From Gammaproteobacteria bacterium (GTDB lineage Bacteria > Pseudomonadota > Gammaproteobacteria > Poriferisulfidales > Poriferisulfidaceae): a stretch of 53,857 nucleotides of DNA. Made by a program: the position numbers and the translations under genes. Below the pieces are notes generated by a model, which saw nothing but the letters and a program-made list of their open reading frames with translations, was not told where the DNA came from and made no database searches. The stretch is taken from NCBI GenBank assembly GCA_028819565.1, contig JAPPLD010000029.1, forward strand, positions 98,998-152,854. The letters run 5' to 3'. Positions 3,639-6,725 of this stretch are shown piece after piece (position 1 is the stretch's first letter; every line of letters begins with the position of its first letter).

Positions 3639-3715
3639 CTTGCTCAGACGAATTCTTATTTAAGCTAGTATTTTCAGTAGGAAGCAGACTTGCAGTTTTG
3701 GAAAAAATTCCCATT

Positions 3716-3724
3716 TGGTATGAT
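3716..3724 (+). promoter_or_regulatory. Extended -10 promoter of the R-M operon
   Basis: TGGTATGAT is an extended -10 (TGn plus TATGAT, five of six bases of TATAAT). Transcription would start near 3731. This rules out the ATG at 3690 as a translation start and supports the ATG at 3765. The -35 region is weak, as is usual with extended -10 promoters. Confidence 0.5.
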
Positions 3725-3764
3725 GCAAAAACTCGCTCGAAAACCCGCTGTCCGAAAGGAGAAG

Positions 3765-4685
3765 ATGGCCAGTCAACCCGCCCAGCAAACATCGGCGGAA
3801 ACTTTCTCTAAAGCGCCTCTGCAGCCACATGCGCCCACTGAAAAAACTGGGATTCTCGACAATGCCGACATGGCATGTGAAGACAATCTGAAATATATGC
3901 GGAGATTCAAGGATGGCGTGATGAGCCTAATCGTTACCTCTCCGCCATACAACCTTGGAAAGTCGTATGAACAACAATCCTCTTTAGATGCCTATCTAGA
4001 GCATCAAGACAAAGTGATCGGTGAATGTGTGCGACTGCTCAATTCGTCTGGCTCCATTTGTTGGCAGGTTGGAAATTATGTAGAAAAAGGGGAAATTGTG
4101 CCATTGGATAACGTTCTGTTTCCTCTATTCAAAAAACATGGCCTTAAACTGCGAAATCGAATCATATGGCACTTCGGACATGGCCTACATTGCTCCCGAC
4201 GATTCTCTGGCCGATACGAAACAATCAACTGGTGGACGAAAAGCGACGATTACACCTTTCATCTGGATCCAGTTAGAGTTCCCTCAAAATACCCCAACAA
4301 AAAATACTTCAAGGGCCCAAAGGTAGGGAAATTGTCGGGAAATCCCAAGGGGAAAAATCCCAGTGACGTCTGGATCTTTCCAAACGTTAAAAGCAATCAT
4401 GTCGAGAAAACAATTCACCCATGCCAGTTTCCTGTTGAACTGGTGGAACGGTTAGTGCTTTCCATGACTGATCCTGGGGATACAGTTTTTGATCCTTATA
4501 TGGGAGTAGGTTCTTCAGTAATAGCCGCCCTGATGCATGAGCGCATGGGTTACGGGTGTGACACAGAAAAAGAATATGTAGGTATAGCGTGGGAAAGGGT
4601 ACGTGCGCTACAGTCAGGAAAGTTGCGTACACGGCCAATGGGGAAACCTGTCTACGACCCGGCGAAACCGAACGGCGGCCATTAA
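3765..4685 (+). CDS. Type II DNA methyltransferase, beta-class (likely N4-cytosine)
   Basis: The protein (306 residues from this start) is an amino-group DNA methyltransferase. Motif IV is TSPPYN at about residues 58-63 and precedes motif I, FDPYMGVGSS, at about 242-251, so this is the beta-class permutation. A TSPPY motif is commonest in N4-cytosine enzymes, although N6-adenine is possible. A longer frame opens at 3690, but that ATG lies upstream of the predicted transcription start; the ATG at 3765 has an AAGGAG just before it. The TAA stop is directly followed by the ATG of the endonuclease gene, forming a coupled R-M operon. Base composition is visibly AT-richer than the flanking dapF and rplU regions, which suggests horizontal acquisition. 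Confidence 0.88.
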   Translation: MASQPAQQTSAETFSKAPLQPHAPTEKTGILDNADMACEDNLKYMRRFKDGVMSLIVTSPPYNLGKSYEQQSSLDAYLEHQDKVIGECVRLLNSSGSICWQVGNYVEKGEIVPLDNVLFPLFKKHGLKLRNRIIWHFGHGLHCSRRFSGRYETINWWTKSDDYTFHLDPVRVPSKYPNKKYFKGPKVGKLSGNPKGKNPSDVWIFPNVKSNHVEKTIHPCQFPVELVERLVLSMTDPGDTVFDPYMGVGSSVIAALMHERMGYGCDTEKEYVGIAWERVRALQSGKLRTRPMGKPVYDPAKPNGGH

Positions 4686-5297
4686 ATGCGCATTGCTGCC
4701 AAATACTCGCACATGAATGGCGAGGAATTTCTACTAGTCCACAAGCCAAAATTGTGGCAGGAAGTTCAAGATGTCATCGCATCAGTCGATGCGGAGGCAT
4801 GTCGGACTAAAGTCTCTAAAGAAATAACAAAAAGGGGTAGACGACTATATTCGCCTATAGATATGAACAAAGCTTTCAAAGAGGGATTGGAAAGTTTTGG
4901 CTGGAAGTCTGAAAGACGGAATTTTTGGGTGACACAAGATGAACAGTTACTTCGAGACACTCTGCACATGCTTCCTGAAGAGCAGAAAGAAGCAATCAAA
5001 GGTGCTGGCCTTGAACCCATTTTGTCCTACAACCAAACAGACTTTGTTAAATCAAAGGTCGCAGTGGAAGTGCAGTTTGGAAAATATGCGTTTGTTGCCC
5101 ATGATTTATTCGTAAAACATTTAAGTTTCTTCGTTTCAGATGTCATCGACGTGGGAATTGAAATACTACCCATGAAAGAGCTTGAGACACAAATGTCGTC
5201 AGGCGTTCCATATTTCGAACGAGATTTACTGAATATCCTCAGACAGGGACGCGGAGTGCCCGCAGTTCCTTTAATCCTTGTAGGCGTTGCCCCGTAA
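4686..5297 (+). CDS. Type II restriction endonuclease, BglII/BstYI family
   Basis: This 203-residue protein resembles the BglII/BstYI group of restriction enzymes, which cleave GATC-centred sites. The core YNQTDFVKSKVAVEVQFGKY carries D119, E128 and Q130: the D-x8-E-x-Q spacing equals that recalled for BglII (D84, E93, Q95), where Gln replaces the usual catalytic Lys of the PD-(D/E)xK fold. The following hydrophobic block and the MKELETQMSSG stretch (about 163-173) also fit this family. The ATG directly abuts the methyltransferase stop (TAAATG). The recognition sequence is inferred to contain GATC (AGATCT or RGATCY); both AGATCT and GGATCC occur in this window, so no site depletion is evident. 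Confidence 0.85.
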   Translation: MRIAAKYSHMNGEEFLLVHKPKLWQEVQDVIASVDAEACRTKVSKEITKRGRRLYSPIDMNKAFKEGLESFGWKSERRNFWVTQDEQLLRDTLHMLPEEQKEAIKGAGLEPILSYNQTDFVKSKVAVEVQFGKYAFVAHDLFVKHLSFFVSDVIDVGIEILPMKELETQMSSGVPYFERDLLNILRQGRGVPAVPLILVGVAP

Positions 5298-5322
5298 ATC
5301 TGAGTCTAAGGGTTACGTGGAA

Positions 5323-5337
5323 GGCTAAAACTTAGCC
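5323..5337. terminator. Short hairpin between convergent island operons
   Basis: GGCTAA and TTAGCC form a perfect 6-bp stem with an AAC loop. The right arm includes the stop codon of the HEPN gene. It separates the convergent R-M operon and HEPN unit. There is no clear T-run on either side, so it would be a weak terminator at best. Confidence 0.3.
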
Positions 5338-6057
5338 AAACACTCTAAATACATTTAGAAGCAGTATTTCTATATGATGTGCTGCTGTGTTGGCGCCAAT
5401 CTTCAGAGAATTCGGATGGCCACAACTATTACGGAGGTCAAGACAGCGTTTCAGTTCATTTTTTACATTTTTCCCGATAATGGAACATGCTGCAATTCGA
5501 TCTAAAAAATCTGCTTCCCTCAATATGCCCAAATCATCCGTTGTTTTCGCATTTTTCCATTTAGGATTTATGCGCCTCATTTCCTGATTGAATTCGTCCA
5601 AATATTCTTTACACACGTGGCTTTGCAAGATGGCTATCGCACCAACCCAAGACATAACAATTGCTGACCGATAGAGTTCAGCCTCATAGCATTTAATCGC
5701 CTCTTCCACAAAAGTACGTATTTCATTACTTTTAATATGCAAGAGTTCTGTTCGGAGATCAGTCGCCACCTGCACCGCCGCCGGCCCAATCTTCGTGACA
5801 CCAAGATTTCTTAAATGCTGCTTGCCTGCATCAGTTATTTCCCATCCCTCCTGCACTCTAATCGCCAGCCCGCGGCTATTGCCCAAAGAGGCCGACGGGT
5901 TCCAAGTCTTTGGTACCTGAAACCCGGCCTCCTTAGCGCGGTTCCTTATTTCTTTAATTTGGCACGGCCTATCCCATGTCGCGAGGATAAGCAATAACTT
6001 GTCACGTTGCGACAGTTCGCGGTATAGCCAAATCTTTAAATCACTCCTGCTTAGCAA
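5332..6057 (-). CDS. Putative HEPN-domain RNase with N-terminal winged helix
   Basis: I do not recognise a named family. From the TTG start the protein has 241 residues. The N-terminal 90 residues look like a winged helix (LLLILATWDRPCQIKEI helix; GWEITDAGKQHLRNLGV wing and helix). The C-terminal part is alpha-helical and ends with LRNSCGHP, giving R209-x4-H214. This fits the R-x4-6-H motif of HEPN ribonucleases, found in abortive-infection and toxin-antitoxin systems. The start is uncertain: an ATG at 6117 overlaps the upstream gene by 77 nt, whereas the TTG at 6057 is preceded by GGAGG at 6 nt and overlaps by only 17 nt, so I prefer the TTG. It forms a two-gene unit with the gene at 6041-6556. 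Confidence 0.6.
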   Translation of the reverse strand: MLSRSDLKIWLYRELSQRDKLLLILATWDRPCQIKEIRNRAKEAGFQVPKTWNPSASLGNSRGLAIRVQEGWEITDAGKQHLRNLGVTKIGPAAVQVATDLRTELLHIKSNEIRTFVEEAIKCYEAELYRSAIVMSWVGAIAILQSHVCKEYLDEFNQEMRRINPKWKNAKTTDDLGILREADFLDRIAACSIIGKNVKNELKRCLDLRNSCGHPNSLKIGANTAAHHIEILLLNVFRVFG

Positions 6058-6556
6058 GTTTCTCCTCCAATACCTTCCTTTCTTTTGGAGAAAGCGTGTA
6101 TGTGTCCTTCCCGACAAGGCGCAAACGATCAGCCCTTACCAATCGCTCAAGATATTGGCTAAGGTTGCTGTTGTATGTTCTTTTATAGAAAGGTGCAGCA
6201 GATTTCATGGTAGTCAAAATTTCTTTTCGGCTCATGCTTTCCTGCCCTTCAATCAGCACCAATCTCACTGACGCGGCGATTATCAAATCTGGACCAGATT
6301 CCACCGCAAGAATTGTTGCAATAGTATTCGTAGAATGGCCGGAATCAATTGATGGACCTGCTGAACCCGCAGGGGCTCCGGGGGTTCCGTGGGAAACCTG
6401 CTGACCAGTAGGTAGAGCAGCTCTATTCTCTGTATAAAAGCCAAGGGTTTTCTCTATAAGATGAAATATGTCCTTTTTTAGGTACGCTTCATCTCCTTCG
6501 TAGGCGATCTCAAATCCGCCCATTTTTATTTGTATTTTCGCTATATCTCCGTTCAT
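6041..6556 (-). CDS. Unknown protein with linker and C-terminal winged-helix-like domain
   Basis: The 171-residue protein is not recognised. Residues 1-42 look like a small beta-beta-alpha module (IQIKMGGFEIAYEGDEAYL followed by a helix), similar in style to short N-terminal modules in bacterial conflict proteins. Residues 45-75 are a Gly/Pro/Ser/Ala-rich flexible linker. Residues 80-171 are helical and end in a likely winged helix (SRKEILTTMKSAAP, then YLERLVRADRLRLVGKDTYTLSPKE). The ATG has a near-ideal Shine-Dalgarno (GGAGG, 7 nt upstream). It overlaps the HEPN gene downstream by 17 nt. By position it could be the antitoxin, regulator or sensor partner of that protein; this is inference. 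Confidence 0.6.
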   Translation of the reverse strand: MNGDIAKIQIKMGGFEIAYEGDEAYLKKDIFHLIEKTLGFYTENRAALPTGQQVSHGTPGAPAGSAGPSIDSGHSTNTIATILAVESGPDLIIAASVRLVLIEGQESMSRKEILTTMKSAAPFYKRTYNSNLSQYLERLVRADRLRLVGKDTYTLSPKERKVLEEKLAKQE

Positions 6557-6600
6557 AGGATTACCTCCAAAAATGATTTAATAAGCATAGTTGCTTGCGA

Positions 6601-6614
6601 CATAATCTATTATG
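6601..6614. promoter_or_regulatory. Palindromic operator candidate over the HEPN-unit promoter
   Basis: CATAAT-ct-ATTATG is a perfect inverted repeat with 6-bp arms. Its right arm is the -10 box of the minus-strand promoter for the winged-helix/HEPN pair. A repressor bound here would block that promoter, which suggests autoregulation by the winged-helix protein. Confidence 0.4.
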
Positions 6615-6636
6615 GTATCTTTTCCTAAAATAGCAA
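6609..6636 (-). promoter_or_regulatory. Promoter of the winged-helix/HEPN unit
   Basis: On the minus strand TTGCTA (6631-6636) and CATAAT (6609-6614) are separated by 16 bp. This would give a leader of roughly 45 nt to the ATG at 6556, which has its own Shine-Dalgarno. Confidence 0.45.
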
Positions 6637-6725
6637 GAGTGAATGCATGGTGCAATGGCAAACTCAAGATCGTGAAGTAGACTGGACATAGTTTCTTCCA
6701 AGTCTTCCACTTTTTGACCGCAAGT

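Follow-up and report, generated by a model that had tools for sequence, protein, structure and literature searches.

A winged-helix protein and a winged-helix–HEPN protein encoded by overlapping genes: a probable phage-defence or toxin-antitoxin unit

Introduction

The window, that is, the whole stretch of 53,857 nucleotides of a gammaproteobacterial contig analysed here, contains two small genes next to a restriction-modification (R-M) operon. Which proteins do these genes encode, and do they act together? The first-pass annotation of this DNA had described gene i as a small N-terminal module, a flexible linker and a winged helix, and gene ii as a winged helix fused to an all-helical domain with the signature of HEPN RNases. 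It had proposed an undescribed defence or toxin-antitoxin unit. In the present work, the observation was confirmed, and the interpretation is partly supported; one of the supporting findings is that the HEPN domain is related to a validated anti-phage protein. Gene i and gene ii probably form a two-gene unit of phage defence or of the toxin-antitoxin type. The pair is absent from the catalogues.

Results

The two overlapping open reading frames that had been noticed from the sequence are real; both are on the minus strand, and they share 17 nt (Table 1). Gene i is the first in the operon, and gene ii is the second. The ATG of gene i is preceded by GGAGG. The best start of gene ii is the TTG at 6057 with the strong ribosome-binding site GGAGGAGAAAC; the alternative TTG at 6117, which belongs to a longer reading frame, is disfavoured. 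With this start, the numbering R209/H214 given earlier for the motif residues is right.

Table 1. Coordinates of the island, the neighbouring R-M genes, and the gene i/gene ii pair in the window
Feature	Position	Strand	Basis or remark
Inserted island between dapF and rplU, 3.1 kb	3645..6723	.	R-M genes and the pair; homology break with congeneric genomes
DNA methyltransferase, type II R-M; neighbour, outside the module	3690..4685	+	Pfam N6_N4_Mtase, 1.7e-49
BglII-like restriction endonuclease; neighbour, outside the module	4686..5297	+	Pfam Endonuc-BglII, 8.4e-37
Gene ii, 241 aa: winged helix and HEPN domain	5332..6057	-	TTG start behind GGAGGAGAAAC
Gene ii residues 107-241, HEPN domain	5335..5739	-	2hsb Z 11.2, 2.6 Å, 111 residues; sequence kinship
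Gene ii residues 209-214, R-N-S-C-G-H, HEPN R-x4-H motif	5416..5433	-	R, N, H and the adjacent P identical in 59/59 sequences
Gene ii residues 13-90, winged helix	5788..6021	-	PadR/MarR-like fold matches, Z up to 8.2
17 nt shared by the end of gene i and the start of gene ii	6041..6057	-	8-17 nt, same frame, kept in most relatives
Gene i, 171 aa: beta-beta-alpha module, linker, winged helix	6041..6556	-	Open reading frame, alignment, AlphaFold2
Gene i residues 84-171, winged helix	6044..6307	-	AlphaFold2 and fold matches
Gene i linker, residues 44-75, variable; pLDDT <50 in the core (52-68)	6332..6427	-	AlphaFold2
Gene i residues 5-43, beta-beta-alpha module	6428..6544	-	Alignment A5 (42 relatives) and AlphaFold2

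The AlphaFold2 model of gene i (mean pLDDT 86.9) reproduced the proposed layout. Strands 5-12 and 15-22 form a hairpin that is followed by helix 23-43, residues 52-68 are unstructured, and the winged helix occupies approximately residues 84-171. The consensus of the beta-beta-alpha module in the alignment of 42 relatives is K-I-R-I-K-x-G-x-x-E-x-E-Y-E-G. The winged helix filled the list of the fold search, and thus this module was barely probed. The winged helix of gene i weakly matches AbiEi (0.0035), and gene i showed no match to a nucleotidyltransferase family. When the profiles of the winged helices of gene i and gene ii were compared, the register was plausible and significance was not reached; therefore, we do not claim their paralogy. 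L133 (154-1827), an alphaproteobacterial locus close to a purA-like gene, encodes a long and acidic protein whose C-terminal winged helix is weakly related to that of gene i (E 3e-6).

The model of gene ii was obtained with a mean pLDDT of 90.4 from an input alignment of 55 sequences, and it bore out the helical bundle expected of a HEPN domain. Using VIA-align, we found that the top matches of the helical half are HEPN proteins: 2hsb (Z 11.2, rmsd 2.6, 111 residues) and 2q00 (10.5), with the sacsin HEPN domain (10.1) and the HEPN-MNT toxins 7bxo and 6m6w (Z 9.7-9.8) as further matches. Foldseek alone gave no match for gene ii with E <0.001, and a Z near 10 is only moderate for a helical bundle. 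Therefore, kinship in sequence is the stronger argument for HEPN. The last HEPN helix runs to the C-terminus (residue 241), and the protein has neither an REase domain nor a zinc ribbon.

The hallmark of the HEPN superfamily is R-x4-6-H with a polar residue after R, and the active site is formed at the dimer interface, where R and H face each other. Gene ii has such a motif, with a polar residue after R, in an all-helical bundle. In the model, the end of helix 196-211 carries R209, and H214 comes immediately after this helix. The R-x4-H string alone could be a matter of chance; its invariance suggests otherwise. In the alignment of the window protein and 59 analysed loci, R209, N210, H214 and P215 are identical in 59/59 covering sequences. 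The eight-residue block R-N-x3-H-P-N carries 4.04 bits per position; the corresponding values of the whole HEPN domain and of the winged helix are 2.97 and 2.44, respectively. The HEPN domain of gene ii is apparently active and RNA-cutting.

Neither protein belongs to a named family of Pfam or NCBIfam, as had been supposed. A search of PDB sequences with the single gene i or gene ii protein gave no match. The gene ii profile did match the PDB entry 9wx2, 'Dandelion-hepn', at 2.9e-5, so that Dandelion was found by the profile only. In PADLOC, the HEPN domain matched PD-T7-3 (PDLC04108) in 51/55 members, at best with 1.7e-8, and this partial match is all that PADLOC covers of the pair. Text searches of the open-access literature returned neither a paper that treats Dandelion as a defence protein nor a description of the gene i/gene ii pair. 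Related domains also occur on plasmids. A Klebsiella plasmid protein that is related and shares the domain matches Pfam DUF4145, a HEPN family, above the cut-off (2.7e-5). Plasmid-borne proteins of 440-465 aa annotated as hypothetical (L002, L004-L008) have a gene ii-related N-terminal HEPN domain and are PD-T7-3/Dandelion-like.

We scanned GTDB species genomes and obtained 80 loci with relatives; 59 loci were analysed. It turned out that the two genes do co-occur elsewhere: a winged-helix partner gene lies beside gene ii in 57/59 relatives. A gene i homologue is located directly upstream in 51/59 loci, and the partner is another winged-helix protein in six (L068, L070, L071 and L072; L081 and L082 of a second subtype). 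In the partnerless loci L069 and L078, gene ii is cut down to approximately the HEPN domain, which indicates that gene ii loses its own winged helix along with the partner. The overlap is retained in most relatives, with a length of 8-17 nt and a constant frame. The layout is of the type II toxin-antitoxin kind: the pair is small and overlapping, the partner gene comes first, and the two are nearly always together. In a sample of 289 alphaproteobacterial genomes, gene ii relatives are present in six (~2%), and the partner is directly upstream in 5/5 full-length gene ii copies; G699 has gene i beside a truncated gene ii. A more distant subtype with the same two-gene layout is found on an Ochrobactrum plasmid (L003) and in G259. 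The distances of gene i and gene ii are correlated (Mantel r 0.65, 0/2000 permutations), and both may also follow species relatedness. Gene i is less conserved, with a mean identity of 34% compared to 52% for gene ii.

The N-terminal modules of the partners vary and are either beta-beta-alpha or helical. In four loci (L028, L054, L073 and L074), a third winged-helix gene with a helical module precedes gene i. Its family is composed of a helical module with RVLxWAxxRF, a linker and a winged helix (L028 2951-3520, L054 4985-5512, L073 4952-5500, L074 4861-5385), and it replaces gene i in other loci. In L132 (56-2395), a gene i relative lies beside an adenine methyltransferase gene and a gene ii that is cut short behind the winged helix. 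The partner is the only constant neighbour among the relatives; we found no constant third gene and no constant association with R-M genes. The DNA upstream of gene i shares nothing beyond a few close relatives, with no conserved upstream RNA, and Rfam gave no match above the threshold. A match to sR24 scored below gathering, and we discarded it as chance.

Gene ii was found in none of 93 genomes related to the host, which range from members of its genus to members of its class. Its relatives span Chloroflexota, Nitrospirota, Verrucomicrobiota and one euryarchaeal MAG, although these bins may be contaminated. In a Methylobacterium prophage from IMG/VR (L105, 5427-6684), the pair lies between the tail/neck and the major head/portal genes, on the strand opposite to the structural genes, with an integrase near. 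In L104, also from IMG/VR, gene ii lies downstream of the tail genes, after tail fibre J and a DNA methylase. Both are typical cargo sites of prophages. The protein encoded upstream of gene ii in L104 (5265-5972) is unlike gene i and has two winged-helix-like segments joined by a lysine-rich linker. A viral search for close relatives with a single protein as the query gave no match, nor did tblastn of plasmids with gene i; tblastn of phages gave one weak match. The pair is mobile and travels as a unit between bacteria and prophages. Many neighbours of the relatives are housekeeping genes. Some match defence families of PADLOC (type I R-M, SNF2/HKD, UG5 reverse transcriptases, MADS); we do not take these uncontrolled matches as proof of defence-island enrichment.

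In the window, homology to congeneric genomes ends at 3644 and restarts at 6724. The GC content of the island is 44.5%, compared to ~61% in the flanks, and the island contains no reverse transcriptase. Among the congeners, G002 and G004 leave the dapF-rplU site empty (27 bp and 64 bp, respectively), G001 has an AbrB/PIN-type pair there, and G003 has a BglII-like REase without the gene i/gene ii pair. The adjacency to an R-M operon that had been pointed out is real, the neighbours being a methylase and a BglII-like endonuclease on the strand opposite to the pair. The link is incidental, because most relatives sit elsewhere and in G003 this site contains the REase while the pair is missing. Within the exchange site, the R-M operon is thus merely adjacent to the pair and not its partner.

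Discussion

The HEPN domain of gene ii has a relative with a known effect, PD-T7-3, which comes from a functional selection and protects E. coli, against T-even phages more strongly than against T7 (PMC9519451); in a review, PD-T7-3 is listed as HEPN-containing (PMC10952713). PD-T7-3 and Dandelion (9wx2, 9wxf) share a homologous HEPN domain with gene ii, with R-x4-H aligned. However, they are single proteins (432 profile positions and 460 aa, respectively) that are matched near their N-termini and have a long C-terminal part, whereas gene ii has 241 aa, a HEPN domain located C-terminally behind a winged helix, and a near-constant partner gene. In the EC042_2821 family (wHTH-HEPN-REase, in R-M operons; PMC3710099), a winged helix is also fused to HEPN, but gene ii lacks the C-terminal REase domain and the zinc ribbon and lies beside an R-M operon on the other strand, not in one. 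HEPN-MNT (type VII toxin-antitoxin) has the same toxin fold (7bxo, 6m6w) and two small adjacent genes; the partner in our pair is a winged-helix protein rather than an MNT nucleotidyltransferase. AbiE is likewise a bicistronic Abi module, and its winged-helix antitoxin AbiEi is the protein weakly matched by gene i, but the presumed toxin of the pair is HEPN and not the AbiEii nucleotidyltransferase. The pair also differs from R-M control proteins in having no constant association with R-M genes.

We consider it fairly probable that the pair is a protein-only abortive-infection or toxin-antitoxin module of two genes, in which a HEPN RNase is restrained by its winged-helix partner. The domain composition, the invariant HEPN motif, the near-constant pairing, the overlapping operon, the HEPN kinship to an anti-phage protein, the mobility and the prophage carriage are all observed. 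From these we infer the RNase activity, its inhibition by gene i, repression, the trigger and the RNA target. Gene i would be made first, in translational coupling to gene ii, and would hold inactive a dimeric HEPN endoribonuclease. The N-terminal winged helix of gene ii may dock to gene i, either by protein-protein contact or via shared DNA. The winged helix of gene i probably represses the operon, and the N-terminal module of gene i on the flexible linker is likely to serve in sensing or assembly. Displacement or loss of gene i, for example, upon phage infection, would let the HEPN dimer cut RNA, and growth would stop. A common target of HEPN proteins is tRNA. Since there is no reverse transcriptase, non-coding RNA or conserved upstream DNA, the control is probably protein-based or uses DNA. 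The exchange of the unit at the dapF-rplU site with an AbrB/PIN-type pair or an R-M gene fits a restrained module. It fits less well that gene i departs from the classical small antitoxins and that another winged-helix protein replaces or joins it in L028, L054, L068, L070 and L071. A tentative extension is a new defence family built around a common winged-helix–HEPN RNase, which would be gated by winged-helix partners whose N-terminal sensor modules, beta-beta-alpha or helical, are interchangeable; the trigger would depend on the partner chosen, and two sensors would be at work in three-gene versions.

The variable partner modules, the better conservation of gene ii (as would be expected opposite an arms-race sensor) and the three-gene versions in four loci also fit a sensor-effector anti-phage system. 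In such a system gene ii would be intrinsically inactive, gene i would sense phage DNA or protein and switch the HEPN RNase on, and the mere loss of gene i would cause no toxicity. We hold this to be rather unlikely: gene i coming first with the overlap coupling, and the fact that only gene ii copies devoid of their winged helix have no partner, fit an inhibitor too. The presence of winged helices in both proteins could instead mean a DNA-binding regulator or nucleoid-type pair that controls local genes or the adjacent R-M operon, its HEPN bundle merely dimerising; the RNase activity of gene ii is, after all, a prediction. Such a role seems improbable given the strong conservation of the R-N-x3-H-P-N block relative to the rest of the HEPN domain, the lack of a constant neighbour besides the partner, and the REase of G003 that stands at the site without the pair.

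An RNA-restrained or retron-like HEPN system, of which the two proteins are the visible part only, has a precedent. In the type IX retron Kva2, a winged-helix protein and a HEPN RNase sit in one complex that sequesters the RNase, a phage protein releases it, and tRNA is degraded (PMC13405049). This shows that a HEPN RNase encoded with a winged-helix protein can be restrained by a complex containing it. In contrast, our pair has no reverse transcriptase or non-coding RNA, and gene ii has a winged helix of its own and a canonical R-x4-H that is invariant among its relatives, which the retron IX HEPN lacks. With no constant third gene in the relatives, no Rfam match above the threshold and upstream DNA shared only among a few close relatives, we regard a retron-like origin as very improbable.

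The pair is a widespread and coherent two-gene unit that the present catalogues miss, and the clear catalytic motif of gene ii makes it accessible to mutation. If the proposed module is confirmed, winged-helix proteins would be shown to control HEPN RNases with no retron, guide RNA or nucleotidyltransferase involved, and dark-matter gene pairs of alphaproteobacteria, prophages and plasmids would be explained. The dapF-rplU site offers a natural comparison set of empty and filled congeners; this gap is an exchange hotspot in the host genus (window 3645-6723; L135-L138).
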